64,000 nucleotides of DNA from Apostichopus japonicus (taxonomy: Eukaryota > Echinodermata > Holothuroidea > Aspidochirotida > Stichopodidae): positions 18,560,554 through 18,624,553 of the forward strand of contig NC_092562.1 of the NCBI RefSeq assembly GCF_037975245.1. The letters run 5' to 3'. Positions within the stretch are counted from its first letter, which is position 1. Every line of letters begins with the position of its first letter. The translations under genes and the position numbers were made by a program. Below, piece after piece: positions 6,258 through 60,838 of this stretch. The notes under the pieces are model-generated. The model did not search any database, was not told where the DNA came from, and worked only from the letters and a program-made list of their open reading frames with translations.

Positions 6258-6791
6258 TAACAGGAGCTGAGTAAGACAAAACACTATGTTATGGCCGTAA
6301 CAGTGACAATTGTCACTCTGTTGGTGTTATCGTTTGGCGTGTTCTACCTAGTGTTCTCTGCGCAGAATCCAAAGGTTGTGAACAATTGACGACGGGAGAT
6401 GGAGATCAAGTAGTTATAATCAGGGTATATATAAGTTAAGGAACGGTAGCTTCGGCCAATTCGATGAAAAACAATTAAAAAAAGCCGAAAGCAATGTAGG
6501 GCTTTCGTCATTTGCTGTGTTATTTTTTTTATCAATAGTTACCTTTACATTGCTCGATGAATAAATTCTGGTGGTATGGATGTGGGAATGTACAATACAT
6601 GGGTTATTTCGTGCCGAAACATAGTAGATATCATTTCCAATCTGAATACACAAAAAATATGTTATTTTCACATGAAGTGGATTTTGAATGTATGATGGTA
6701 TACCATGAAAGAGAAAATGATGGCTGAGGGAAATATTCTGACCAAAGAGAATGTTTATGACGGATACACCGCCACCATAGACTATGACAAG
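6258..6791 (+). pseudogene. Broken BRICHOS gene copy, exons 2 and 3
   Basis: Two blocks match exons 2 and 3 of the BRICHOS gene at 20791-25001, in the opposite orientation. Exon 2 equivalent (6258-6424) keeps most of the membrane-span coding sequence ([19 protein letters not shown]), but its first codon is TAA instead of TAT, and one base lost after GTTGTGAACAA creates a TGA. Exon 3 equivalent (6674-6791) keeps the MAEGNILT and DGYTATIDYDK regions and the donor GT, but has lost two bases and its acceptor AG. The 249-bp intron between them shows it is an unprocessed duplicate, not a retrocopy. No counterparts of exons 4 and 5 were found downstream. Exon 1 may have been lost with the deletion at 1820. 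Confidence 0.85.
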
Positions 6792-10471: not shown

Positions 10472-10475
10472 TTAA

Positions 10476-10942
10476 GGTAGCATACGCCCATTAAAAGCCC
10501 CATTGACTTACACACTAAATCACAAAAGTAATGTGGTCTCTAAGTCTAGATAGAAGTTTTCACTAGCTTAACGCTACCCATCACCGGATAGCTGACGAGT
10601 TGGCCTTTCATGGCACCATCAATTTTCCGTACCATGACCGTGAAAATTTTTTGCTATCCGAGCCGGAAGTTTTCGTCACTTGTAAACAAACCTCTTCACT
10701 CAGTGGTAAACAAATTTCCTACGCTGCTCCTGGGAAGCCTAAAGGGGTCTAAAATTGCCTCAATTGACCCAATGTTTTCACCACATGTACTTCCATTCAT
10801 GCTCTTCAACATGAAAGCCACAAAAAACTAGATTATGATTGATAACAGGTCACAAAAGATGTTCTCCTGCTGCTTTTTGGCACTTTTCCTGAAGGAGAAC
10901 AATCGAGCGGATTGATATAGACTCTAATAGGAGTATGCCACC
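10476..10942. mobile_element. TTAA-flanked MITE, copy 1
   Basis: 467 bp with imperfect terminal inverted repeats: GGTAGCATACGCCCATT at the left end and AATAGGAGTATGCCACC at the right. TTAA flanks both sides (10472-10475 and 10943-10946), the target duplication expected of piggyBac-type elements. There is no transposase frame, so it is non-autonomous. The superfamily call rests on TTAA and size. Confidence 0.8.
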
Positions 10943-10946
10943 TTAA

Positions 10947-12739
10947 GTGAGAGTTGAATTTTTTTTTTTTTTCCAAAATGATACTTTTCATAGTCGTCAC
11001 AATATAAACCACAACAGAATTATATGCAATTATCATTTTAGGTCCATAAAGATGTATTTTCAGAGATTTCAGTATGCACGGTGCAGTGTGTAAATACACA
11101 TATGAGCAATACTGTGTAAGCAGTAACCAGGTCTATGTCTGCAACAACACTTCCAGTCACCAATTTTGATAAGCTTGACCAATTTGGGTGCATCTATGAT
11201 TCTTGCAGGTATTATTGGTATCCCTGATCACAATCCACTTGGTCTGGCTTGCCCTACCTGCAGAAACATCATCCATAGAAGGGTTAGCGGTGAGGGCTTT
11301 TTCGTCTCTGGCTCTGAAAAGTGATGAAAACTACTTTTGTTTAGCTCAGCAGATTCCTCACAAACTGACCCACAGGACATACCCCAATGTATTCCTGAAC
11401 TGTTTGGAACATGTTAAACTGATATTGTATGTCACTCCAGTGCAACTGTTAAGTTACTAAGAATAAAAGAAGAGAATTGAAGGTGTTCTTTGCCAAAACT
11501 GGATCATCGGGATTTGTAAACAACAGCCTCACTGTAACAGTATTACAGCAGTCAAAAGGAAAGCTTACTGGAATGCTATCTAGATACACTGTTCACCTCA
11601 ATAGCATATCCAGTCCATTTAAAGGTTTGTGCATAGGTTGTTACAATGTATTAAAGACAGTTATAAGAGAAGAGAGGTGGATAGGGGGGCATATTTCATG
11701 ATAAAACATTCAAATTTGTTGCTCGGCAGAGAACAACGACGTCAAATTACCTTATTCTCCATTGGTGGCAAGCACTGGTTCCTATAGTTACTACAGTAGA
11801 TCTCCCATGGAAGCATCAGGATATCTCTTTCTGCTGTCAGAGTTGTTTGGGATTTGTTGTTACCTCATCTAACCAGTTGAGTCCATTGATACCACACCCA
11901 TTCAAAGTATATCGCTGTGCATGCTGAGGACTTAGCACATCAACTTTCTCTGAAATTGACAAAACAACAGAAAACTAATGAGGAGTGAATAGGCTCAAAA
12001 ACCCCATGATGCACATTGGCAGAAGCAGAATATGCATACCTTTGTGGATTATTTGCTAAATAAGACTCAAAACATTCTCTGTGCAAGGTATTAGCCCTCA
12101 GCAGCCACTCCACTTAGGATACAGACCTCATACAACATTGTGCTACAGCTGGTGTAGACTTGGTCTAGGATACTAACGTAGCGCCATTATGAACCTGAGG
12201 CCTAGGCCTAAGCTAACAACATTAGGGGTATTTCATGCATTGAAACTGAGTTTTTGTCCTTAGTTAAACACCAGGTGCTTCCAGCTTTAGCAAAAATAAC
12301 CTAAAGTATGATTACCATGTAATTTAGGTGCCCACAGATGTCAAATTTCACTGAACTTAGTCGTTCACGTCACACACACTGCAGGCTTTTTGGTCTGATT
12401 CTGAAGGATTTTGAATTTCGTGCATTTGGCACCTACTTAGCAGATTCAAGGTAGGAATCATACTACGGAAGCTTTGGTAGGTCAAGGCTTAATGACCCAA
12501 TAGTTTATTGGGGAGGAAAACTGGTTAGAAATGCTCAGAAGGCTGTTCTAGTCTAATGTATGGACACGCACATGCTCTTTGTGGTACTTTAAGGCTGTAA
12601 TACTAATTTATGCGTAAAAATCACCCAAGCGTGAAATTTTCTGACGTTTGCTTGAAAACCATTTTTACACACCATAGCAACTACTTTGATCCAAAATTGG
12701 GACTTCTAGCACTTAAAATGAAAAATTTGGCATTTTTGC
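10947..12739. other. Array spacer, copy 1
   Basis: About 1.8 kb between successive MITEs, repeated at 13215-15007 and 15483-17275. It encodes no recognisable full protein. On the minus strand a 90-bp stretch near 11861-11950 is open, preceded by a pyrimidine-rich AG and followed by GTAACA. Nearby 11750-11850 is also open on the minus strand in another frame. The plus-strand frames at 11203-11460 and 11477-11701 have no domain. It could be a relic of host gene or transposon sequence. Confidence 0.5.
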
Positions 12740-12743
12740 TTAA

Positions 12744-13210
12744 GGTAGCATACGCCCATTAAAAGCCCCATTGACTTACACACTAAATCACAAAAGTAAT
12801 GTGGTCTCTAAGTCTAGATAGAAGTTTTCACTAGCTTAACGCTACCCATCACCGGATAGCTGACGAGTTGGCCTTTCATGGCACCATCAATTTTCCGTAC
12901 CATGACCGTGAAAATTTTTTGCTATCCGAGCCGGAAGTTTTCGTCACTTGTAAACAAACCTCTTCACTCAGTGGTAAACAAATTTCCTACGCTGCTCCTG
13001 GGAAGCCTAAAGGGGTCTAAAATTGCCTCAATTGACCCAATGTTTTCACCACATGTACTTCCATTCATGCTCTTCAACATGAAAGCCACAAAAAACTAGA
13101 TTATGATTGATAACAGGTCACAAAAGATGTTCTCCTGCTGCTTTTTGGCACTTTTCCTGAAGGAGAACAATCGAGCGGATTGATATAGACTCTAATAGGA
13201 GTATGCCACC
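12744..13210. mobile_element. TTAA-flanked MITE, copy 2
   Basis: Identical, as far as I compared, to the copy at 10476-10942, with TTAA on both sides. Confidence 0.8.
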
Positions 13211-15011
13211 TTAAGTGAGAGTTGAATTTTTTTTTTTTTTCCAAAATGATACTTTTCATAGTCGTCACAATATAAACCACAACAGAATTATATGCAATTA
13301 TCATTTTAGGTCCATAAAGATGTATTTTCAGAGATTTCAGTATGCACGGTGCAGTGTGTAAATACACATATGAGCAATACTGTGTAAGCAGTAACCAGGT
13401 CTATGTCTGCAACAACACTTCCAGTCACCAATTTTGATAAGCTTGACCAATTTGGGTGCATCTATGATTCTTGCAGGTATTATTGGTATCCCTGATCACA
13501 ATCCACTTGGTCTGGCTTGCCCTACCTGCAGAAACATCATCCATAGAAGGGTTAGCGGTGAGGGCTTTTTCGTCTCTGGCTCTGAAAAGTGATGAAAACT
13601 ACTTTTGTTTAGCTCAGCAGATTCCTCACAAACTGACCCACAGGACATACCCCAATGTATTCCTGAACTGTTTGGAACATGTTAAACTGATATTGTATGT
13701 CACTCCAGTGCAACTGTTAAGTTACTAAGAATAAAAGAAGAGAATTGAAGGTGTTCTTTGCCAAAACTGGATCATCGGGATTTGTAAACAACAGCCTCAC
13801 TGTAACAGTATTACAGCAGTCAAAAGGAAAGCTTACTGGAATGCTATCTAGATACACTGTTCACCTCAATAGCATATCCAGTCCATTTAAAGGTTTGTGC
13901 ATAGGTTGTTACAATGTATTAAAGACAGTTATAAGAGAAGAGAGGTGGATAGGGGGGCATATTTCATGATAAAACATTCAAATTTGTTGCTCGGCAGAGA
14001 ACAACGACGTCAAATTACCTTATTCTCCATTGGTGGCAAGCACTGGTTCCTATAGTTACTACAGTAGATCTCCCATGGAAGCATCAGGATATCTCTTTCT
14101 GCTGTCAGAGTTGTTTGGGATTTGTTGTTACCTCATCTAACCAGTTGAGTCCATTGATACCACACCCATTCAAAGTATATCGCTGTGCATGCTGAGGACT
14201 TAGCACATCAACTTTCTCTGAAATTGACAAAACAACAGAAAACTAATGAGGAGTGAATAGGCTCAAAAACCCCATGATGCACATTGGCAGAAGCAGAATA
14301 TGCATACCTTTGTGGATTATTTGCTAAATAAGACTCAAAACATTCTCTGTGCAAGGTATTAGCCCTCAGCAGCCACTCCACTTAGGATACAGACCTCATA
14401 CAACATTGTGCTACAGCTGGTGTAGACTTGGTCTAGGATACTAACGTAGCGCCATTATGAACCTGAGGCCTAGGCCTAAGCTAACAACATTAGGGGTATT
14501 TCATGCATTGAAACTGAGTTTTTGTCCTTAGTTAAACACCAGGTGCTTCCAGCTTTAGCAAAAATAACCTAAAGTATGATTACCATGTAATTTAGGTGCC
14601 CACAGATGTCAAATTTCACTGAACTTAGTCGTTCACGTCACACACACTGCAGGCTTTTTGGTCTGATTCTGAAGGATTTTGAATTTCGTGCATTTGGCAC
14701 CTACTTAGCAGATTCAAGGTAGGAATCATACTACGGAAGCTTTGGTAGGTCAAGGCTTAATGACCCAATAGTTTATTGGGGAGGAAAACTGGTTAGAAAT
14801 GCTCAGAAGGCTGTTCTAGTCTAATGTATGGACACGCACATGCTCTTTGTGGTACTTTAAGGCTGTAATACTAATTTATGCGTAAAAATCACCCAAGCGT
14901 GAAATTTTCTGACGTTTGCTTGAAAACCATTTTTACACACCATAGCAACTACTTTGATCCAAAATTGGGACTTCTAGCACTTAAAATGAAAAATTTGGCA
15001 TTTTTGCTTAA

Positions 15012-15478
15012 GGTAGCATACGCCCATTAAAAGCCCCATTGACTTACACACTAAATCACAAAAGTAATGTGGTCTCTAAGTCTAGATAGAAGTTTTCACT
15101 AGCTTAACGCTACCCATCACCGGATAGCTGACGAGTTGGCCTTTCATGGCACCATCAATTTTCCGTACCATGACCGTGAAAATTTTTTGCTATCCGAGCC
15201 GGAAGTTTTCGTCACTTGTAAACAAACCTCTTCACTCAGTGGTAAACAAATTTCCTACGCTGCTCCTGGGAAGCCTAAAGGGGTCTAAAATTGCCTCAAT
15301 TGACCCAATGTTTTCACCACATGTACTTCCATTCATGCTCTTCAACATGAAAGCCACAAAAAACTAGATTATGATTGATAACAGGTCACAAAAGATGTTC
15401 TCCTGCTGCTTTTTGGCACTTTTCCTGAAGGAGAACAATCGAGCGGATTGATATAGACTCTAATAGGAGTATGCCACC
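15012..15478. mobile_element. TTAA-flanked MITE, copy 3
   Basis: Identical, as far as I compared, to the copy at 10476-10942, with TTAA on both sides. Confidence 0.8.
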
Positions 15479-17279
15479 TTAAGTGAGAGTTGAATTTTTT
15501 TTTTTTTTCCAAAATGATACTTTTCATAGTCGTCACAATATAAACCACAACAGAATTATATGCAATTATCATTTTAGGTCCATAAAGATGTATTTTCAGA
15601 GATTTCAGTATGCACGGTGCAGTGTGTAAATACACATATGAGCAATACTGTGTAAGCAGTAACCAGGTCTATGTCTGCAACAACACTTCCAGTCACCAAT
15701 TTTGATAAGCTTGACCAATTTGGGTGCATCTATGATTCTTGCAGGTATTATTGGTATCCCTGATCACAATCCACTTGGTCTGGCTTGCCCTACCTGCAGA
15801 AACATCATCCATAGAAGGGTTAGCGGTGAGGGCTTTTTCGTCTCTGGCTCTGAAAAGTGATGAAAACTACTTTTGTTTAGCTCAGCAGATTCCTCACAAA
15901 CTGACCCACAGGACATACCCCAATGTATTCCTGAACTGTTTGGAACATGTTAAACTGATATTGTATGTCACTCCAGTGCAACTGTTAAGTTACTAAGAAT
16001 AAAAGAAGAGAATTGAAGGTGTTCTTTGCCAAAACTGGATCATCGGGATTTGTAAACAACAGCCTCACTGTAACAGTATTACAGCAGTCAAAAGGAAAGC
16101 TTACTGGAATGCTATCTAGATACACTGTTCACCTCAATAGCATATCCAGTCCATTTAAAGGTTTGTGCATAGGTTGTTACAATGTATTAAAGACAGTTAT
16201 AAGAGAAGAGAGGTGGATAGGGGGGCATATTTCATGATAAAACATTCAAATTTGTTGCTCGGCAGAGAACAACGACGTCAAATTACCTTATTCTCCATTG
16301 GTGGCAAGCACTGGTTCCTATAGTTACTACAGTAGATCTCCCATGGAAGCATCAGGATATCTCTTTCTGCTGTCAGAGTTGTTTGGGATTTGTTGTTACC
16401 TCATCTAACCAGTTGAGTCCATTGATACCACACCCATTCAAAGTATATCGCTGTGCATGCTGAGGACTTAGCACATCAACTTTCTCTGAAATTGACAAAA
16501 CAACAGAAAACTAATGAGGAGTGAATAGGCTCAAAAACCCCATGATGCACATTGGCAGAAGCAGAATATGCATACCTTTGTGGATTATTTGCTAAATAAG
16601 ACTCAAAACATTCTCTGTGCAAGGTATTAGCCCTCAGCAGCCACTCCACTTAGGATACAGACCTCATACAACATTGTGCTACAGCTGGTGTAGACTTGGT
16701 CTAGGATACTAACGTAGCGCCATTATGAACCTGAGGCCTAGGCCTAAGCTAACAACATTAGGGGTATTTCATGCATTGAAACTGAGTTTTTGTCCTTAGT
16801 TAAACACCAGGTGCTTCCAGCTTTAGCAAAAATAACCTAAAGTATGATTACCATGTAATTTAGGTGCCCACAGATGTCAAATTTCACTGAACTTAGTCGT
16901 TCACGTCACACACACTGCAGGCTTTTTGGTCTGATTCTGAAGGATTTTGAATTTCGTGCATTTGGCACCTACTTAGCAGATTCAAGGTAGGAATCATACT
17001 ACGGAAGCTTTGGTAGGTCAAGGCTTAATGACCCAATAGTTTATTGGGGAGGAAAACTGGTTAGAAATGCTCAGAAGGCTGTTCTAGTCTAATGTATGGA
17101 CACGCACATGCTCTTTGTGGTACTTTAAGGCTGTAATACTAATTTATGCGTAAAAATCACCCAAGCGTGAAATTTTCTGACGTTTGCTTGAAAACCATTT
17201 TTACACACCATAGCAACTACTTTGATCCAAAATTGGGACTTCTAGCACTTAAAATGAAAAATTTGGCATTTTTGCTTAA

Positions 17280-17746
17280 GGTAGCATACGCCCATTAAAA
17301 GCCCCATTGACTTACACACTAAATCACAAAAGTAATGTGGTCTCTAAGTCTAGATAGAAGTTTTCACTAGCTTAACGCTACCCATCACCGGATAGCTGAC
17401 GAGTTGGCCTTTCATGGCACCATCAATTTTCCGTACCATGACCGTGAAAATTTTTTGCTATCCGAGCCGGAAGTTTTCGTCACTTGTAAACAAACCTCTT
17501 CACTCAGTGGTAAACAAATTTCCTACGCTGCTCCTGGGAAGCCTAAAGGGGTCTAAAATTGCCTCAATTGACCCAATGTTTTCACCACATGTACTTCCAT
17601 TCATGCTCTTCAACATGAAAGCCACAAAAAACTAGATTATGATTGATAACAGGTCACAAAAGATGTTCTCCTGCTGCTTTTTGGCACTTTTCCTGAAGGA
17701 GAACAATCGAGCGGATTGATATAGACTCTAATAGGAGTATGCCACC
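17280..17746. mobile_element. TTAA-flanked MITE, copy 4 (array end)
   Basis: Same 467-bp element. The left flank is TTAA, but the right flank reads TTAC, after which sequence departs from the other units. The array border therefore coincides with the element end. Confidence 0.8.
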
Positions 17747-20790: not shown

Positions 20791-21666
20791 TTAACAAACA
20801 GTAATAAAGTATGTTTCGCAATCTGTTACTATCACCCAAAGTTCACATGGTACTACTGGTTCTACATTCGCTTGTTGTCTTACTGCCGCTCGCACAATCC
20901 GTGTATCTTGGTTGTTCATTGGCTCAATCCAGAAGGATAAACTATCAATACATTGATCAGCTGCATTGATTAACTTGAGGAAACCAGCTGGTATCGGTTC
21001 TAATTGTTCTGCATACATCCTTGCATTGGAATGATTCAGTACCTACATCGAAAACAATAATTCACTTTAAAGTTATATCGATTAAAGGCAGTCGCCTGTT
21101 CAAAGGTTTAGAAACCTAAGAAATAAAAACATGTAAATACTGTCCAAATTAACATTCCTATCAGAAAACAAGATGAACAATGTATTAACTTGAAATGATA
21201 CATAGTAAAATTATTGCCTATGCAAGTTTCTAAAGTACAATTGACAATGATGAAATATTTCTGCTTTTAAGTTGACATCAACATATTGCGGTCATCTCAC
21301 AAAAGTTTTGTTTTTCCTTCAGGGAGAGGGGTATTTATTGAGATAATTCATTATCGGACTATCAAGGCATAAAGAGAAGAAAATTTAAACAATGAGTTAA
21401 ATTAGCAATTATTACAATAAATACAAATATCTTAAAGTAATCTTACGTGTTCAAATATTAATACATGACTGTAATTTATACATATCAGTTATTTAAAGGT
21501 GTTTTATTTTCTCTACTAACTTGACATTCGGGACAGTTAAAATCTGGAGATATTCGGTACTGAGATAACCCCAATCAATCTCTCTACATGTATGGGGTCT
21601 GACGGAAGATCATTAAGACATACCGTCCTCGGGAATTTCCCTAGTGGGATGTTTCAATCCACATCA

Positions 21667-21801: not shown

Positions 21802-24800
21802 CAGTCAATATACATTATAGGTGAGATATTTCATCTTAACGCGTTTTGATTGGTCTCAAAGTTATTGTTTCGACAAACAAAGAAGATGAGCTTTATTAAA
21901 AATAGTTCTTTGGGGTCGCTGCATATGATGACGAATTATGACGACCAGCCTAGATCATTCGCATGAGCGAAGAGAGACCTGTGTGATAACATATATGCAT
22001 ATACCTATTTAGGAAAATGATTTTTAAAATGTTTTCCATCCTCATAATAGCAATGATCATATCATTCGAACAACCGAAAGACGAAACCAGTTACCTTCCC
22101 CCCTCCCTCCCTCCCTCCCTCTCCAACCAGCTTGGTGAGGGGAAATGCAAACACCTCCTGATGATGTTGGTTTGATTAGTCTCTGACCCAGTCTCTTGTT
22201 TTCGTAACAAAGAAATGGTGGCATATTTCTAATTTATCACTTTTTCGCGTCAGCAACAACTGGTTTAGTTTTACAAACAAACGAAGGTCGTCATCATGAA
22301 TATATCAACATCCCACCCTCTCTCACCCTAAACCTCTCTCTACCTCCACCTCTCTCTCCACCTATCTCTCTCTCGCACTCTCTCTGTCTCTCCACCCACC
22401 ACGCCCTCCTCCCTGATCCCCTCCTTAACGAAAAGGATATCTTTCTTACCTTATCGGAAGATGAATCAGCCTCTCGAAAGAAGAAGGGGAGAATATTGTC
22501 TAAATTATCCACAGACATATCTCCAGGGTAGTCTTCGAGTGGAGTGAAGTAGCAATTGTTGTTTTTCAGATCTTTAATCATGATGATGTTCTAAATCAAA
22601 AAGAGAAAGACAAAAGTAGAAATAAAGAATTCATAAAAGCTCTTGCGTTTCAGTCCTTAAAAGTAGCTGGATACCATGGAAACTCTACGCTCCCTATCCC
22701 TTCCCATGAAAAAACGCGAAATATCTGTAATAAATGCTTCAAGCTGATATTGATGCTTCAGTAGGTCTTATGGTTTGTTAAATTGTGTGGTAAGTTTGAG
22801 TCTTTAAATTTGATAATTTTGATAAAATGTTGCTACATGAAAAATTCATAATAAAAAAAAGCTATAAGTATTACCTTGTCATGGTCAAATGTGGCAGTAT
22901 ATCCGTCGTTCAAATTCTCTATGATCAGAATATTTCCCTCGACCATCATTTTTTCGTTTCTTGGAACGCCATCGAACATTTCAAAAGCCACTTCCTGTAA
23001 ACAGAATAAGACAACATTCTTGTCAGTTTTCATTCATTAATTTACACCGACGATTAATTTACGCCGAGGTAACAACTGCATACATCGACACTTAATACAT
23101 GTGCAAACAATGCACCCATTCTCCCTCACCACATCCAGTCCCACCATGAATCGTTGCCCACTCTTTTTCATCCTTCGTGCACCCTTGCCCACCCATATTC
23201 ATCCTTCTTCACCCCAAGCCCCACCCTGTCACCGTAATATTTTGATAGTAAAACTCATATCGGTTTATGGTAATAATCAATCTTTCAATCAAAATTGTAG
23301 TCTTTCATCTGTGTGAAGTTTATTTTAATATCCGAAGTATATGCATAGCTTTCCTTTACCTTTCATATTGTTTTGAACTTAATTCTCGTTAGGTTCCTTT
23401 ACTTTTACTTACCCTGATTATAACTACTTGATCTCCATCTCCCGTCGTCAAGTTGTTCACAACCTTTGGATTCTGCGCAGAAAACACTAGGTAGAACACT
23501 CCAAACGATAGCACCAACAGAGTGACAATTGTCACTGTTACGGCGATAACATAGAGTTTCGTCTTACTCGGCTGCTGATACTATATACAGTAAAAGGACA
23601 TTTAAATTATTTAATGCATTCAATTGACCTTTTATATGTATATTATACTTGCGAAATAGGCAAATCAAATCAAGCCAAATCAAAAACATCATTTATGGGA
23701 AACTAGTGGGGTCAGGATGGCGAGTGGGTAAGGTATATATACTGTATTTACAACGTGTCCCATTTCTTCATATACTATTGTTCATGAAATATCGGTCAAA
23801 CAGAAGGTATTAACATCCGTGTGTCTGTACGGTCCTAACCATGACGACCCGCCAACTTTCAAGTTCCATTTTCCAATGTCTGTAAGACTCAACGGGATTC
23901 CCTTGTTGTGGGAAGGGATCTTGATTTTGTCTTTATCTTAAATCCTAAATTATAGATGGTCAGGACAAGTACTTCGAGTTAATGCCAAGTTCATACTTAG
24001 AAGATATTTGACGAGAATTGAACCCCCAAATAAGGAGTCAAATATTTCCCAATTCATTGTAGGCTGATTTTTCTTTTCTCGAAGTTTTCTCTCACAATTT
24101 TTGGTAGGATTACCCGCAGGGTCACACATTTCTTCAATTAAATCTGATTAAGGAAGGGTTCTGGGTTGTTGTTTTTTATTGGTAGTTTAATAACTCCCTC
24201 CTTTTATTTATACTTTTTCGATTAAAAACTTTTATTGCGTCGTAAACAATCATTTTCGGTAGGATTACCCTCAGGGTCACGCACTTGTAAAATTAAATCT
24301 GATTAAAGAAGAGGTCTGGGGTTTTTTGTGGTAGTTTAATAAATCCCTCTTTTTATTTATACTTCTTCGATTAAAACTTGTATTGCGGAGTAATCTAATA
24401 GTATCAAGGATTTGAACCTGCCGCTTTTAGTGGGAATTCATAAAGCTTTCGATTCGTAAGGTTAAGAGCATCACATATGGTTCAGAAAAAGGCAAGTGCT
24501 AGTCGTTTACACACATGCATGGTATTTTACATCCATATATGACGTCAGATATATCAGACATCCAAAATAATTTCAAACTGTATGTAAACTAGTTTTACTT
24601 TCAAACCTAAACAACTGTCTTAACTTAATGAGTTACAATCAAGCTGTTTGATAACGTTGTGCCAGCCAAATGGTAGACATAAATCTCATAAGTTTTTAGT
24701 TAATTAGATTGAGACTATATACAAGTTTTAAATAAAATAATGGAGTAAAATACCGAACTTCAAGCTCTTGATTTTACAATACGTAGTTTATATATAAACG

Positions 24801-25001
24801 ACTTTAATTATACAAAACCCTCATATGTTACAGACTATTCATTAAGTAAAATTGTTGATGATAAGGAAGAGTAACGTTGATCTAATACCGAGCAGCAGAA
24901 ATAACGAAAAAGCTATTTGTTAAGCATTAACTTACCGTATATGCAGGAGGTGGGCTCATGGCCACTGGAATATCACCTTTAACTTGCATTTCTTGAGCCA
25001 T
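20791..25001 (-). CDS. BRICHOS gene 1: type II membrane protein, 248 aa, five exons
   Basis: Exons (minus strand): 24936-25001, 23413-23580, 22875-22994, 22450-22590, 20791-21042. All junctions are GT-AG and all introns are phase 0. The protein starts [10 protein letters not shown], has a PPAY motif at residues 18-21, one membrane span at about 31-57 without a cleavable signal, an N-glycosylation sequon NLT at 65, and a BRICHOS domain over roughly residues 85-205. BRICHOS hallmarks are FDHDK at the exon 3/4 border with the conserved Asp, CYFTPL with Cys131, and DQC with Cys196 as its likely disulfide partner. The tail (residues 197-248) has three more cysteines (231, 240, 248) in a beta-prone stretch. 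BRICHOS domains act as intramolecular chaperones for aggregation-prone C-terminal segments in the secretory pathway. Substrate here is unknown. The domain call is by eye. Confidence 0.85.
21669..21796. repeat. (TA)n microsatellite in BRICHOS gene 1 intron 4
   Basis: Two TA runs separated by a short block repeating CACCTAT. The open frame across it is a repeat artefact. Confidence 0.9.
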
Positions 25002-26524: not shown

Positions 26525-26965
26525 ACTGTTCTTGATTTTCCAACTCATTACGATTTTCATTTATATATATATATATTCATTTGCCTTTGTCGTTTACCTC
26601 CATTTCATTAACATAAAGTATGTTCAAAGTAACTCTTTCGAGACCCGGCTTTAGGAATCACAAATGATTTTCGAGTTGATTAGCATCATGTTTGATCTCT
26701 AGAGTAAGGCAAAATATGTCACAAAAAACAGAACTAGTATTGTTCGATACAGGTGACAAAGGCCTACAGTGGAATTACGACCTTCCTTACCGGTTTAGAA
26801 CTTCTGGACATACAATCAGCGTACATGGCCTAGTTGGTTAGGGTGTCCACGTACAAAGCGGGAGGCCCGGGTTCGAATCCCGGCGGAGGCTGGAAGTTTT
26901 TTCACTGTTCTTGATTTTCCAACTCATTACGATTTTCATATTCATATATATATATATATATATAA
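26525..26965 (+). mobile_element. tRNA-derived SINE, about 1.1 tandem units
   Basis: The block CACTGTTCTTGATTTTCC occurs at 26525 and again at 26905, about 380 bp apart, each followed by a TA-rich stretch. Between them lies a body ending in a tRNA-like head (26819-26890). The same unit occurs inverted and also in tandem at 60285-60838. Tandem SINE units could come from head-to-tail insertion or unequal exchange. Confidence 0.75.
26819..26890 (+). promoter_or_regulatory. tRNA-like SINE head with A and B boxes
   Basis: About 72 bp with an A box (TGGCCTAGTTGGTTAGGG) and a perfect B box (GGGTTCGAATCCC), matching an internal RNA polymerase III promoter. Acceptor ends (GCGTACA against CGGAGGC) do not pair, so this is not a functional tRNA gene but the promoter of a SINE. 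Confidence 0.75.
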
Positions 26966-31974: not shown

Positions 31975-34900
31975 CTAACGACCGAACGAAATGCTAATAC
32001 AGATTTTGATCCGTATTCTAAAGTGCATTTTTCGTTTCACCAATCCGCTCTCTTGTGGTGTCAACCAATACGAATCGCCGTTGGAACACTGGCTTGACAC
32101 AGCAGGGCTGTTAGTCAACTTGATGTAACCCGCAGGGATGAGATCTGATTGGCTAAAGACGATGACGTCAACGGTTTCATCAACTGGCACCTACAGGAGA
32201 CATAGAGAACACGTTAAATGTCGTTGAGAATTAATCATCAGAAAAATACATAAAAATCGAAGTACATCCCTGGTGGAAATTCCAGTTGAACTGGGTTCAA
32301 CTGGAATTTTCTATACGGAAATTGACCCAAATTTGAACTAGGTTGAAATGGGTGAACTGGGGTTCCCAACTGGTTCAACTATGTTTTACTGGGTCCAACT
32401 GGTTCAACTATGTTTTACTGGGTCCAACTGGTTCAACTATGTTTTACTGGGTCCAACAGGTTCAAATATGTTTACTGGGTCCAGCTGGTTCAACTATGTT
32501 TTACTGGGTCCAACTGGTTGAACTATGTTTTACTGGGTCAACTATGTTTTGCTGGGTCCAACTGGGTCAACAATCTACACAATATAACACCACATTATAA
32601 GAAGTTTTCATTCTTTTACAGTAGACCTACTGTATGTAAGGGTGTTAGCCACTGAAAATAAATGTTTGTTCTTGATCAGAGAACTCTGGGTTTGGTGTGA
32701 TGACCAAACACAGAGCAAGACACATCAAAAAAATGGAGAATTCAACTGGATTGGATCAAAAGAAATTATAATTATGAATAACAAACAATGTACAGCTGAT
32801 CTGGGCCCAGTCAAAGAATTAAATGAAACAACTTACAGTCGTGAGGTGCGCACCCAAAATATAAAGAAATACGCTTAATTTAAAGTCTGTTCTGGTGAGT
32901 TGGCCTGCTGGTGACATCAAGTATTCTACGACCTCAGATCTTCCACGACATCATATATACTACGACATCAGTATAGTTGAACCCAATAAATGGTATTATG
33001 AATGTCCGATCCCAACAAAATAGTATCCTTTAATTTATATGAAATATTGTTCCAGGGTATCCTTACAGTAAAATATTGTCAATATCCTTTGTAGTAAAAT
33101 AATGTCCTTTATACTGTAAGTGATGGTGTCATGGAATATCCTTTATTGTAAAGTAATATCCTTTATAGTAAATAATATCCTTTATAATAAATAGTGGTCC
33201 AGACTGTCAGTTGAATATCACAACTTCCATAAAAAGTAAGGTCTACAGTAACTTGAACTATGTAAATTAAGGTTTAAAACAAACTGTTCTGCTTTTAAAC
33301 TATCTTTCTCTTCTTTTACAACTGCCTTGCTCAGATACTCATAGCCAACTGCCTAACTCCCTATGTTCAGTGTAGGGCATCTTCACATTTGTAGCATATA
33401 TGTGTATGCTGTACACTTCACTAATGACTTTTGCAAAGCAAAATATGTTGTAATGCCAATAGGACACCTCATGTTTGGAACAACAGTCAAGGCAATTGCG
33501 TAAATTTTGAAATTGCTATTATGTTTGCTAAAATCATGCGGCTAAATATAGGTGTTAACTTGAGTATAACTAGGTTAGGCCCCTATAAGCTAGGCAACTA
33601 TAACGTTAGGATATGTCTAACGTTAGTAAATGTAGCATGTGGTATACCTAGTAGGGAACCGGTTTGTTAGGCCTAGCCTATACTATAGTCCTAGGCCACT
33701 ATATGTAAAGTTTCTGTTCAATTCAAATATTTATGATAAAGAGCACGTTTACAATCAATTATAATGTTACAAGTATGTGTCAATAATATAAAGATACTGC
33801 AAGATCACAAAGGAGGGAACTTAGCCGCGGTAATAATTTGAAATTGTTGGAAAAATCGGTTACAAATGCGATTATTCTGCGAAGCTTCTGTTGGCGTATG
33901 TGGTTTGCGGATTCGGAATTTATAAATTTAGCGCTAACGCAAGACAAATGTCGAAGTTCAAATTTAGTCGGATCATACTATTTTGCACTAGGAAGGCATT
34001 TTGCCTACCAATTATTCATATCAACGAACAAAGTATAACATAATTTTTTTCAAATTTATTATATAGTAAATATTTCATATTTTTAATCATTGCGGTACAA
34101 AAATGTAATCGTTTAATCATAACTGTGATAAATATGACAAAGATTTATTTTACACCCCTCATAAGTTGGCTAATTTAGCATTTTCAATATATTACGATAC
34201 GGTTACTGCTTACGACTTACATTATAATATTCTCGATAATTACGCCTAAAATAAAAGCAGTCAACATAGTCCAAACCCAGTTGGGCCAGTGTGAAACCTA
34301 GTTCAACCCCAACAGGGCAAGTTCACCAGTAAACATAGTTCAAACCCAGTTGGGCTTGTGCAAACCAGTGAATAAAACCTAGTTAAACCCCAGCTGGGTC
34401 AGTTCATCAGCCAATAGTCCAAACCCAGTTGGGCCAGTGCAAAACCAATGAAACCTAGTTCAACCCCAACAGGGCAAGTTCACCAGTCAACATAGTTCAA
34501 ACCCAGTTGGGCTAGTGCAAAAACCAGTGAAACCTAGTTGAAGCCCAACTGGATCAGTTCAAACATAGTTCAAACTCAGTTGGGCCTGAACAAACCCAGT
34601 TGAACATTGTGTAAACCCTGTTGAAACTAGCTTATGTACAGCATAGCCCAGTTGTAACCCAGTAAGACCCAGTTAAACACAGTTATAAACAAGTTAAACA
34701 TAGTAGGCCCTAGTAGAACCTAGTTGGTTTTTTTAATGGGTTCTACTGGAATTTCTACCAGGGATTGTTTAAACACATTCTTAGATATACGCGTCACACT
34801 TGGCCGAAAGGAATTGTTTTTTTCATTTTGATGCGATTGGTTGAAGATATAAGCGTATTTTGTCGCAAATTTCTGATAACGTTATGCTTCTGTTCTTTTC

Positions 34901-37900
34901 TCTCTGCTTTGCTACGTTGTTTCACTCACCAGGTCTGATCCGGGTTGTATTTCTTGGAAGTAGAAGGGAGGAACGTTATCCATATCTTCCATTCCCATGT
35001 CAGGAATTTCTTGCAATCGGGTAAAGTAGCAGGTCGAAGAAGTCTGGTTTTTAATCATCACAATTTCCTGAAATATAAAATAATTCATAAAATGTCATTT
35101 AAAGTATGAAGCAGATGGGTGACGAGTAAATACAATAAAATGCACTTTCAATTGGTGCTGAGTAAATAGTATGATAGCCTGTTATCGCCGTACAGAAAAT
35201 GGAACTTTCTTATTATATATGGCTGGTTTACCAAAATTCAATAACCATCCGCTTAGAAGAGGTTTGAGCATGTGCATCCGGTACGAAGAGTACAAGATTC
35301 AACACACTAAGAAGTACAATCATTATTTCTGTCAGCGTCCTCCCTGCCCCCCCCCCCAAAAAAAAATCATCCCACCCTATATACCCCTAAATAACGAAAT
35401 TAACCATGTTCTGCTGTCAAATAATTCGCCTCTTCTGTTATAATATGTTGAAGTATGGCTTGTCCATTTCTCCCCATCCGAGCTTCAGTTATTGCTTTGG
35501 GGAGGTTGGAAGGGTAGAGTGTTGTTTTAAGACCAAGGTAAACTTGCTCTTCATAAATGGGCTTACCCTTCCATGATCAAAGATGGCCACAAAACCATCG
35601 CCGATACTTTTAATGGTGAGAACGTCACCCTCGGCCGTCATGACTTCGTGATGTTGCACGCCATCACCAATCTCGTAGGATACACTCTACAAAGAATTAA
35701 ATTCACCATTTGACAACTATCTGTATAATGTTGCGTTGAAGTAGTTTTTAGGAATCAAATGACTAAAATCGAATCATCATAACTACTGTGACATTTACAA
35801 CTAACAAAATTAGTCTTCCAGGGTAGAAATATCCAAGTTTAAAAGTTCCTTAAGCCATGTTTGTCCATTACGTGAATAAACTTTGTTTGTATTTCTGCGA
35901 TAAAAACGCGAAAATAGTTTTAAACATGTTCTCAGTCGTGTGGTATGCAAATGTATTGAAGGATTAACACTTTTGCTTCTTAGTACTTTTACATTAGATC
36001 TGTTAATTACTTTAGAACGACTTATTGCACAAAAAGCAATGATAGTAACCTGTTATAACTCATTTAATTTCAGGTTTTATTTATTGAGCAACGAATCCTT
36101 AAAGATTTCAGATCCATTATGATATAAGTAGCTGAATAACTTGCAGCTTACATGAAGCGGCCGAATTTTCCAGGTCCGCATAACAATTCAAATATCAATG
36201 GGAAACTATTAGACTTGTGATCTTAAGTAACAGACAAACTCGTCTCATCTAAACTGCACTCATCTAAACTGCATCATTATATCGCCTGGAAGGGTAATTA
36301 TCTTACGTAGCTAAACAGCCTCTTGTTCATATGGGAAAAGCCGAATTGCTTACAACTCACACTTCACGTCGAATGGCTATCCAATTTAAAGTGTAAGCTC
36401 GCGTTGGGTTTGTTCTCTTACAATTTCTGGTGTGTTCCTGGTATGAACTGGAAATAATTATTCAGTGCCCACTAAAACTATAAGATAACATCAACTATAT
36501 GACAACCATTATCGCTTCAGCTTGTACTTACCCGAGTAATGACGATCGGATCTTTCGCTTCGACTTCGCTTGATAAGTTGTTTACAATCGTTGCTTCTGG
36601 GGCTGACAACAACATGAAAAGTACACCAAAGAATCCTACCAGGATGGTCACAACAATGACTGATATGGCCACCACGTACAGCGTGGTCTTATCCTTACCC
36701 TATCGGATCAAGAAATATTAGATCAAATTAACAGTTCAGATGGGAAAAAGTTAGTATTTGACAAAGTGACTAACGGAGATATGAAATATTGACAAGCCCT
36801 GCAGAAGATTTCTTGAGTATTGCAATATTGTAGTGCGAGTCACAAGTCATAGAAAGTTGCATAATGTATGACGTAATATCAGTTTACCCGTTTCCAACCC
36901 GGCAAAATGCAGGGAAAGACATCAAAGAAACATATTTTAAAAGCACATATAAAACTGCTAACTTCATTTCGTTAGCAAACCCACCACGATTAATTTCTCC
37001 ACTGGCGTTTGCAACGTTTAAAATATAACATCTCCCAAATAAAGTACAGTTTTTTATAGCTGTTGGCGTCGTTGCTCAAGAATTATGGATCGCCAAAAGG
37101 GTAAATGCTGTCGAAGATGACAGCTATCTTGATTAAGATGACCACTTTCTTGATGATAGAGAGAACTATTTCGTGTGTGACGGCTATTACTCTCACGACT
37201 ATGTCCATTTATTTGATGATGACGACAACCTTTTGGAAAATGTTGGCCACAGTGTCATCACTTAGATAATTGTTAACTTGAACTCAAATTTCCAGATAAT
37301 AGTATGCAATTCGAATACTGTGCAAATGTAAGGTACATTCACGTTTGAAAATTTGGAAACTGAGTCTAATGTATTTTCGAATGAATATGAATTGATATAA
37401 ATTAATAGTATCGATGTTAATTTACTTTCAAATCGCAGAATGCGAGTTGTGAAATATTGAGGCAATATCACTTGTATGCTTTAGGTATAAGGTTACGAGT
37501 AACTATATTCAATAATGTCTCAAAATCGAACGAAGAATTGAAGATGTTTCAATGAATGAAATATTGTTGGTAATAAACAATGTAATATTTCTGTCTGGTT
37601 AGAATTATGTTATATTTCATAAACAGACCGTTAAAAGTAAAAAGGTATCAATTGATCATGTTAATCATACGAATTTCAATTAATTCATGCATTTGTCCAT
37701 TCACTGGGGTGCAGAACGTAGGACAAATAAAAAAGGATACATCTTCACAATTGATTAAATATAACACTAAGAGCACATGGCCACGATGCAGGATACACGA
37801 TCATTTAAGACAAGTTCCGTCAAAATACTGGTTACTGAGCCGATGAATACCTTTGCACCAGAGAGTTTCGAGTTTGTATACACATGGTCGTAAAGATCAG

Positions 37901-39310
37901 TTTCAGAGCAGGGCGATGCGGGGGAAAGGGTCGGCAACGGTTATATAACATTCATGAATTAATTTCGGATATGTTACTGCTGATGAATTTCTTTAGAGGT
38001 GTTTTTGCAATGAAACAGTGCCGTGGATTGTTTTCATACATAGAATAGGATAGCAGTATTAATTAACTAAATTTTGAAGTGTTTTTCAACTTCTTCATTT
38101 ACTTAGCAACCGGCTCTCCTTGCCTTCGCTATCCACTCTCCTCAACCTATTCGACCCCCTCCATGCCACCCAAGAAAAACTTCATAAAACACGACATGAA
38201 GAAAATGACATGATATTACGAAGAATACATTTGCGATTATATTATAGCTTTGTAATATATTTTTCGATGGGCAACAAAATATGAGAACTCAACATTCTAT
38301 TTGTTATATATCCTATGTTGGCAACTTGCGGTAAAAGAGACAATATTGGGTACGATATACTGAAGTCAAAATTTTGAAACCTTTAGAGCGCGTTGTTTCA
38401 AAACACACTTTGTTCAATTTCGTAAAGACGCAAGAACGTGGAAGAATTATGGTATATCACCCATATTGTTGTTCTGTTTATTTAATAAGTTTGGTTTGGG
38501 TAACATTACTCTAAGATCTGTTTGTTGTATAATAAAGTACCCTATATTTATATATTTATTGATAAGAAAAAGTGCTGTTATTATCAACAGAACATGACTA
38601 AATGAAGGGGGAAATCGGTATCAGTTTAGGACCTGCAGCTCTGATGAACCGCATGCCTCTCAAATAACTAACGATGTTTTCAGATTACTACTCAATTAAT
38701 TGCTTTAATCTAGTCTCCTGAAAAGACACAATCAGATGATATAATCTGATCTACTAATGACAACACAATGAGGTACAATTATGCAAAAGCAAAGTACTAA
38801 CACTTTGTCTTAACGAATATTAATCATTCAAACGGCATAGCAAATACCGACTTTAGGTTGCCGTGAGTTTAAAAACATTTCCATGACGGGAATGAAGGAT
38901 TAGACAAACTGACCTGACATGGAAATCCCTAATAATTGCAATTCATTAACTTACTTGTCAAGTTTTATGTAACATATCGAGTAAACTTGTAAATATTCCA
39001 CATTTGACTTTGCAAGTGTTGATTATGACACTGATAAAATGTCTGGACGACGAAAACGTTTCTTAATCGAAAAAGTATACATTCATTACTCGTTATATTT
39101 AACGATCATCCAAGTGGTGAAAGAAACCTACAAAAGGCTGTGAGTTGGCTTGATCAATTGAAATAAAATTTCGAATGAGCTTTAAAATAGTTATTTGCAA
39201 TTGAAACAACAACGAAAATAAGAGGAAAGCTTAAGTGATTTCCTTACCTGATACGCAGGAGGTAAATCCATCACCATGGAAAGATCTTTTCCTCGCATCT
39301 CTTGAGCCAT
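31975..39310 (-). CDS. BRICHOS gene 2: type II membrane precursor with cationic C-terminal peptide, 234 aa, five exons
   Basis: Exons (minus strand): 39248-39310, 36532-36699, 35567-35686, 34930-35067, 31975-32190; all GT-AG, all introns phase 0, with exon lengths nearly the same as gene 1. The protein starts MAQEMRGKDL, has PPAY at residues 17-20, a membrane span at about 29-54, sequons NLS at 62 and NQT at 124, and a BRICHOS domain with FDHG, CYFTRL (Cys130) and SSQC (Cys198). The tail differs completely from gene 1: after ESGLVKR comes KMHFRIRIKICISISFGR and the stop. This is a dibasic site, then alternating basic and hydrophobic residues typical of a cationic beta-strand, then Gly-Arg, a potential C-terminal amidation signal. 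Annelid arenicin-type antimicrobial peptides are likewise made from BRICHOS precursors. Peptide release and activity are inference. Confidence 0.85.
32372..32568. repeat. 29-bp minisatellite, about 7 units
   Basis: Unit GGTTCAACTATGTTTTACTG plus GGTCCAACT, repeated about seven times with few changes. The two overlapping open frames here are translations of the repeat and are not genes. Confidence 0.9.
34263..34690. repeat. Minisatellite, about 70-85 bp units
   Basis: Repeats of AAACCCAGTTGGGCCAGTG, AAACCTAGTTCAACCCC and GTTCACCAGTCAACATAGTT blocks, about five units with variable deletions. Its words are related, in inverted orientation, to the 29-bp array at the other end of the same element. 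Confidence 0.8.
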
Positions 39311-60284: not shown

Positions 60285-60838
60285 GAGGTTCGAAACCGGT
60301 AAGGAAGGTCGTAATTCCACTTTAAGCGTATGTCACCTGTATCGAACAATAATAGTTCTGTTTTTTTGTGACATATTTTGCCTTACTCTAGAGATCAAAC
60401 ATGATGCTAACCAACTCGAAAATCATTGTGATTCCTAAAGCCGGATCTCGAAAGAGATACTTTGAACAGACTTTATGTTAATGCAATGGAGGTAAACGAC
60501 AAAGGCAAATGAAACTATATAAATGAAAATCGTAATGAGTTGGAAAATCAAGAACAGTGAATAAACTTTCAGCCTCCACCGGGATTCCAACCACGGGCCT
60601 CCCGCTCTGTACGCGGACACCCTAACCACTAGGCTATGGACGCTGATTGTATGTCCAGAGGTTCAAAACCGGTAAGGAAGGTCGTATTTCCACTGTAGGC
60701 GTTTGTCACCTGTATCGAACAATACTAGTTCTGTTTTTGGTAACATATTTTGCCTTACTCTAGAGATCAAACATGATGCTAACCAACTCGAAATCATTTG
60801 TGATTCCTAAAGCAGTCAGTTCAAAGTATCTCTTTATA
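60285..60838 (-). mobile_element. tRNA-derived SINE, tandem units
   Basis: Reverse-orientation copy of the family at 26525-26965. The body with TAAGGCAAAATATGT and CCTTCCTTACCGGTTT occurs twice (about 60290-60480 and 60660-60830), with a tRNA-like head and TTCACTGTTCTTGATTTTCC between. Tandem arrangement as in the 26-kb copy. Confidence 0.75.
60572..60643 (-). promoter_or_regulatory. tRNA-like SINE head with A and B boxes
   Basis: Minus-strand A box TAGCCTAGTGGTTAGGG and a degenerate B box GGTTGGAATCCC. Acceptor ends GCGTCCA and TGGAGGC pair poorly; not a functional tRNA gene. Confidence 0.7.

Follow-up and report, generated by a model that had tools for sequence, protein, structure and literature searches.

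Architecture of gene 2

The window analyzed here is a 64,000-nucleotide stretch of the genome of the sea cucumber Apostichopus japonicus (contig NC_092562.1, positions 18,560,554 to 18,624,553 of the forward strand), which carries a gene for a BRICHOS-like precursor (gene 2), a five-exon paralogue (gene 1) and a degenerate third copy (Table 1). Gene 2 is composed of five exons on the minus strand, with all introns in phase 0 and bounded by GT-AG ends, and encodes 234 residues. As predicted from sequence, its product is a type II membrane BRICHOS-like proprotein with a cytosolic end bearing a PPxY motif, one anchor, a lumenal BRICHOS domain, a dibasic linker and a beta-prone C-terminal cargo. 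An earlier sequence-only reading of this DNA had placed the last exon at 31975–32190, ending in KR and then KMHFRIRIKICISISFGR and a stop; these coordinates and residues are correct, and the exon follows four others with clean splice sites. It translates to VPVDETVDVIVFSQSDLIPAGYIKLTNSPAVSSQCSNGDSYWLTPQESGLVKR, with SGLVKR directly before the putative cut, followed by KMHFRIRIKICISISFGR and the stop codon.

Protein searches returned 16 relatives, from A. japonicus, Holothuria leucospilota and two contigs labelled lgn, and none from any further class of echinoderm or any further animal group (word-seeded protein searches only, with E values of 0.01, 0.01 and 1). One of them, the A. japonicus database protein P0004, matches the assembled gene 1 protein at 100% identity. 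An exact gene 2 entry was not found in the protein database, which is clustered at 90% identity, so that this absence does not show the gene to be unannotated. The N-terminus encoded by exon 1 of gene 2 closely resembles those of A. japonicus P0001 and P0006, and the anchor is assigned to exon 2 on the basis of a helix at residues 25–53 in the AlphaFold2 model of the paralogue P0001. A PPxY motif lies near the N-terminus of genes 1 and 2 and of 11 of the 16 database relatives (P0001, P0002, P0004–P0012), and is missing from P0003, the fragment-like P0013 and three H. leucospilota models. The cytosolic end of proSP-C also bears PPxY, and by analogy the motif in genes 1 and 2 is a possible trafficking signal. 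Intron 4 of gene 2 holds a minisatellite (about 29 bases in 6 copies, window 32366–32543) and a further tandem array at 34292–34586.

Table 1. Positions of the gene 2, gene 1 and third-copy features in the window.
Feature	Position	Strand	Description
Gene 2 exon 1	39248..39310	-	MAQEMRGKDLSMVMDLPPAYQ; cytosolic end, PPxY motif (PPAY, aa 17-20); GT donor
Gene 2 exon 2	36532..36699	-	Single transmembrane signal anchor and start of lumenal linker; orientation predicted
Gene 2 exon 3	35567..35686	-	First half of BRICHOS domain; conserved Asp D114 (FDHGR)
Gene 2 exon 4	34930..35067	-	BRICHOS; first conserved Cys, C130
Gene 2 exon 5	31975..32190 (stop codon included)	-	BRICHOS end with second Cys C198, KR site, tail, stop
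Dibasic Lys-Arg codons, putative convertase site (aa 215-216)	32032..32037	-	
Cargo peptide KMHFRIRIKICISISFGR	31978..32031	-	Alternating beta-strand pattern; differs between paralogues
Gene 1 exon 1	24936..25001	-	Paralogue; PPPAY motif
Gene 1 exon 2	23413..23580	-	Transmembrane
Gene 1 exon 3	22875..22994	-	BRICHOS
Gene 1 exon 4	22450..22590	-	BRICHOS
Gene 1 exon 5	20791..21042	-	RIVR site, then 32-residue hydrophobic hairpin-like cargo
Degenerate third copy	6261..6791	+	Exon 2-like piece with internal stop, exon 3-like piece; opposite orientation to genes 1 and 2

Evidence for the BRICHOS domain

A conserved Asp and two Cys define the BRICHOS superfamily according to a passage of PMC10182729, and gene 2 carries them as D114, C130 and C198 (placed by sequence alignment). 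All three are invariant in the 8 sequences of family alignment A3, and the first Cys is invariant in alignment A4 as well. The layout of the superfamily is also present, namely a type II anchor (helix 25–53) and a convertase site (KR/RR or RxxR) before a C-terminal peptide. The P0001 model gives a moderate fold match to the BRICHOS domain of proSP-C (2yad), which is supportive only. Its strands 74–82 and 88–96 precede the stretch aligning to proSP-C, and sit where PMC9714404, in the passage used, puts extra strands that proSP-C does not have, a point of likeness to ITM2/Bri2. The model leaves the linker at the cleavage site disordered and draws the tail as a strand with no visible pairing partner; the model of P0004, with a mean predicted local distance difference test (pLDDT) score of 57.6, was left out of the fold search. 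Five database entries among the relatives are named BRICHOS.

The Pfam cut-off for PF04089 (25 bits) was reached neither by gene 2, which is unmatched, nor by gene 1 at 15.4 bits, and among 10 relatives 7 matched below it (best 18.0 bits) and 3 were unmatched; this cut-off is a criterion of sensitivity. Three single exons gave no Pfam match, and the family profile found no BRICHOS chain among PDB sequences, its sole match being an unrelated receptor at E 2.1. Searched exon by exon, PF04089 was unmatched in the animal's own genome and equally in 14 control genomes, which makes that search uninformative. The BRICHOS-like precursor of the sequence-only reading is supported by the signature residues and, more loosely, by the moderate fold match.

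Cleavage site and cargo pattern

A basic cleavage site stands ahead of the tail in all 17 sequences that reach it, 9 of clade 2, to which gene 2 belongs, and 8 of clade 1, that of gene 1. It is KR or RR in every clade-2 sequence (gene 2, L031/P0001, L032, L034, L035, P0003, P0014, P0015 and P0016), three of which belong to H. leucospilota, and RIVR, RNVR, RKVR(R) or RSKR in 8 of 8 clade-1 database proteins reaching exon 5 (P0004–P0010 and P0012). The clade-1 count includes P0005 with an apparent unspliced insert, P0008 with an aberrant end and P0012 without exon 3; P0002, P0011 and P0013 end before the site and were excluded.

The gene 2 tail has a net charge of +5, one Cys and an FGR end, and its polar/hydrophobic alternation runs without a break for 17 residues (p 1.5e-4 against own-letter shuffles), much as the sequence-only reading had described it. 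Among 2179 stop-terminated frames of the window (at least 20 aa), 11, gene 2 included, have an alternating run of at least 12 in their last 18 residues, while a Gly, Gly-Lys or Gly-Arg type end occurs in 82 and is weak evidence alone. The other clade-2 tails of A. japonicus, beside KMHFRIRIKICISISFGR, are GWWPKITVCIHIKITF, DVTVEIDLTVVGVHVNIKIQWD, DVTIEIDVTVVGVHVHIKIQWD, DVTVEIDLTVVGVHVNIKVQWG and GSFDINFKIFLILVKVTFTW, and those of H. leucospilota are GEIDVRVRILQVQVEINISW, GEIHIRVRIFCIRIEIHISW and KEIRIRLRVLCLHIEIDTSGD; in this order, with gene 2 first, their net charges (KR minus DE) are +5, +2, -3, -3, -2, +1, -1, +1 and 0. Length (16–22 residues) and alternation are kept in H. leucospilota too, with changing letters. 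Against own-letter shuffles, alternation reaches p 1e-4 to 0.009 in five of the six clade-2 tails tested out of nine; for P0016 it reaches p 0.044, and the longest-run measure misses at 0.051. Periodicity moments in 8 of the 9 are 0.53–0.83 at 170 degrees vs. 0.07–0.21 at the helical 100 degrees, and an aromatic residue lies at or near the end of all but P0016 (8/9). The beta-prone C-terminal cargo of the sequence-only reading is supported.

The five clade-1 tails tested are longer (24–38 residues), partly very hydrophobic and negative in net charge (-2 to -6); three have a VIVTDC or IIVTDC core, and alternation was found in none of the five. That of gene 1 has three Cys and modelled strands at 232–237 and 242–247 of low confidence (block pLDDT 54–58). 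The amidation end that the sequence-only reading had emphasized does not generalize. Of nine clade-2 tails only gene 2 (FGR) and the paralogue model P0003 (WG) have a Gly-type end, the two genomic counterparts of P0003 end in WD, and FGR is private to gene 2. That reading had also named orthologues without a conserved KR or basic tail as what would speak against it; KR or RR is kept, and the basic tail is not.

Divergence of cargo and chaperone

Gene 2 was compared with its closest paralogue, L031. At the protein level 201 of 216 body residues are identical (93%) and 4 of 16 in the tail; the coding body has proportions of synonymous (pS) and nonsynonymous (pN) differences of 0.076 and 0.031, and there are 6 differences in the 159 bases before the end of the cleavage site and 28 in 48 aligned tail bases. 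In successive blocks of 30 alignment columns, identity is 96, 96, 96, 96 and 96 before the cleavage codons, 46, 52 and 26 from these codons to the stop, and 80, 20 (indel), then 66, 86, 90, 100 and 96 in the 3' flank. The divergent island thus spans about 80 columns, begins at the KR codons and tapers off around the stop, with conserved sequence on both sides, and the alignable locus including introns and flank has 411 mismatches in 4163.

The H. leucospilota trio, for which only proteins were compared, behaves similarly, with identities of 203/218, 200/218 and 196/218 in the bodies and 12/20, 8/20 and 10/20 in the tails. Gene 1 and L033 differ at 23 of 582 body and 30 of 96 tail nucleotides, and their 3' flank has diverged as well. 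Residue class is conserved at 12–20 positions per tail pair, a figure partly favored by the scoring matrix. In a test with the pattern held fixed, the gene 2 tail has no further likeness to any of six other tails, the L032 tail resembles P0014 (p 5e-4) and P0015 (p 1.5e-3) and not P0016, and the L031 tail is weakly similar to that of P0016 (p 0.026, with 21 pairs compared). From these sequences it seems that both species share an older form of the tail, from which gene 2 and L031 have diverged. No donor of a tail cassette was found elsewhere in the genome, where a 91-base stretch around the gene 2 tail matches only itself, a result that does not prove rarity.

The genomic cluster

A genome search with gene 2 gave at least 50 exon matches, every one on contig C2 at 17.93–18.69 Mb. 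We read 12 copies with exons 2–5 in this cluster, four of clade 2 (gene 2, L031, L034 and L035, the last two with exon 1 not confidently placed) and eight of clade 1 (gene 1, L033, L036, L037, L038, L040, L043 and L044, with the exon 1–2 splice ends of L036 and L037 left unresolved by the boundaries used). Fragments are present at L039, L042 and window 6261–6791. Some copies, such as the near-identical pairs L034/L035 and L036/L037, could be unmerged assembly haplotypes. At L032 (4239–4018, minus strand; C2 at about 18.686 Mb) a lone clade-2 exon 5 with an intact frame has no recognizable exons 1–4 nearby. This exon may be a relic; because all introns read are in phase 0, it may also be an alternative last exon of the upstream clade-1 gene. 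L038 has two exon 2-like copies in succession within one gene (5795–5442, minus strand), possibly alternative membrane-anchor exons.

Elsewhere in the window, a sampled 300-base stretch recurs in four identical copies at exactly 2268-base spacing (10472–17575), which reflects either tandem duplication of very recent date or an artefact of the assembly. tRNA-like Rfam matches at 26819–26891 and 60570–60644, the second also called a tRNA by ARAGORN, may be repeat-derived, and Pfam found nothing near cut-off in seven other open frames of the window.

Interpretation of the variable cargo

The reading that we favor, and consider on balance probable, is that gene 2 encodes a convertase-released, self-associating beta-strand peptide whose function would most likely lie in host defense. 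The BRICHOS domain would guard the aggregation-prone strand in cis during secretion, a furin-like convertase would cut after KR and free the tail, and the freed strand would pair with itself into membrane-active or fibril-like assemblies, where the single Cys of the gene 2 tail may also join strands; the strongly cationic gene 2 cargo could serve as a classical antimicrobial peptide. Defense is preferred because of the tandem copies, the variable cargo beside a conserved propiece and the annelid precedent, and seems more likely than a hormone role because some copies share the chaperone but bear a different strand of the same pattern. Variable cargo next to a conserved propiece is a habit of other antimicrobial gene families. 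A bolder and tentative extension is that sea cucumbers possess an innate arsenal of alternating beta-strands, interchangeable, fast-changing and of any net charge, which would be presented by a conserved BRICHOS chaperone, freed by convertase and self-assembled on microbes. Selection would then keep only the alternation and the cleavage site, together with, in most cases, an aromatic residue at the end.

Some comparisons weigh against the variable-cargo reading. The tail contrast of L034/L035 is non-significant (3/66 vs. 11/588, p 0.16), the tails of L036 and L037 differ by just one substitution and one gap, and a near-identical tail is common to gene 1, L040, L043 and L044. Between gene 2 and L031, synonymous and nonsynonymous changes in the tail are both near saturation; with synonymous change there matching nonsynonymous change, selection on the tail is not proven, nor is it told apart from gene conversion. 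Cationic charge, which the sequence-only reading had stressed, fails as a general property, with the 8 other clade-2 tails at +2 to -3 and 5 of 5 clade-1 tails negative. We accordingly rejected strong cationicity as a family hallmark, as the paralogue and H. leucospilota tails are not strongly cationic.

These non-cationic gene 1-type tails (five tested, net -2 to -6) would suit a structural or surface-active role, an unlikely proposal in which the released strands form fibrils or films in mucus, cuticle or the lining of the gut or respiratory tree with no antimicrobial purpose, as likened to SP-C or gastrokine-like proteins. Variability would then reflect a constraint loose on letters and firm on pattern, which agrees with a pattern retained while the letters drift, and the cytosolic PPxY is comparable with that of proSP-C; the gene 2/L031 tail, at 28/48 vs. 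411/4163 for the alignable rest, nevertheless exceeds mere relaxation. Concerted evolution, where gene conversion homogenizes bodies and 3' flanks around old, unconverted tails and the island marks conversion boundaries, appears to us rather improbable. It would account for near-saturation in both classes of tail change and for gene 1/L033 divergence running on into the 3' flank, and the alignment of the L032 tail with those of H. leucospilota (p 5e-4 and 1.5e-3) means that tail lineages can be old. An island of about 80 columns that starts at the cleavage codons between conserved stretches, and a similar contrast among the H. leucospilota proteins (proteins only), speak against it.

The KR site and terminal Gly-Arg of gene 2, with the WG end of P0003, might instead suggest an amidated signaling peptide (hormone or neuropeptide), which we hold to be very unlikely. 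A Gly-type end is missing from the remaining clade-2 tails, each precursor holds one peptide, and only the pattern, not a residue motif, links the gene 2 tail to its clade-2 counterparts; such absence of conserved residues speaks against a hormone that binds a receptor. We dropped an amidated hormone as the main reading, since conservation extends to no Gly end and to no residue motif. It is hardly credible that the tail is not translated, the true last exon lying elsewhere and the end of exon 5 being read-through. Exon 5 of gene 2 is a sequence-based prediction, but the second BRICHOS Cys and the tail share one exon, and similar ends are found in P0001 and P0003 of A. japonicus and in three H. 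leucospilota models. P0010, a 235-aa open frame in a 1,475-base contig that by size is probably a spliced message, reads straight into its own tail.

Comparison with known systems

By analogy, the family may work like the annelid BRICHOS antimicrobial precursors, its antimicrobial identity being putative. Arenicin, alvinellacin, nicomicin, capitellacin and HfBRI precursors resemble the sea cucumber family in having a BRICHOS domain, a dibasic or RxxR site and a short C-terminal peptide. The annelid peptides are mostly cationic and several are active, whereas the sea cucumber tails range from +5 to -3 in clade 2, are negative in 5 of 5 clade-1 tails and have putative activity at most. Passages of PMC10745061 describe five transmembrane HfBRI precursors in Heteromastus, with HfBRI-20 and -23 predicted as beta-hairpins and likened to (VR)n peptides and HfBRI-75 and -91 as non-cationic. 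In Alvinella, as a passage of PMC5431198 has it, the peptide is monomorphic and the chaperone diversifying, which is the reverse of gene 2/L031, where the chaperone is kept and the peptide differs.

Convertase cleavage that releases an aggregation-prone peptide is general among BRICHOS proproteins, and the human type II members, ITM2/Bri2 among them, resemble gene 2 in their type II anchor, BRICHOS domain, convertase site and C-terminal peptide (both from passages of PMC9714404). The sea cucumber family is unlike ITM2/Bri2 in that its cargo is variable and multigenic, and the PDB sequence-profile search matched no BRICHOS chain. ProSP-C supplies the moderate fold match (2yad), and genes 1 and 2 have the cytosolic PPxY in common with it. 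The SP-C peptide is N-terminal to BRICHOS (PMC9714404, same passages), whereas the sea cucumber cargo is C-terminal.

The sequence-only reading did not know a BRICHOS-guarded peptide of a deuterostome to be described; the deuterostome setting is supported, and vertebrate BRICHOS precursors releasing C-terminal peptides are already known (PMC9714404, in part). Nor are BRICHOS proteins of echinoderms new in themselves, because a divergent BRICHOS group mentioned by Hedlund and others includes echinoderm sequences (a passage of PMC2751770). Holothuroidins, the sole characterized sea cucumber antimicrobial peptides per a 2025 review (PMC11767717), differ in being small, cationic and alpha-helical, and are not tied to BRICHOS in the review passage. 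In the passages of PMC11767717 and PMC12466427 the BRICHOS peptides named come only from annelids, with one general sentence of the latter taking polychaetes, molluscs, cnidarians and tunicates together. No holothurian BRICHOS peptide was found in the titles and abstract openings of the BRICHOS, echinoderm and antimicrobial-peptide literature searched, which is not the whole literature, and a search of papers by locus tag gave no match. What is new is the echinoderm BRICHOS proprotein family and its variable cargo.

Among animals on the branch that includes the vertebrates, BRICHOS proteins protect amyloid-prone peptides associated with dementia and with lung disease. If our favored reading is true, BRICHOS-guarded peptide defense would be no annelid speciality and would also occur on that branch, in echinoderms, and a farmed species would gain a second peptide family beside the one characterized antimicrobial family of sea cucumbers. 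A chaperone whose cargo is constant in pattern and changing in letters would also be a natural experiment on BRICHOS recognition.
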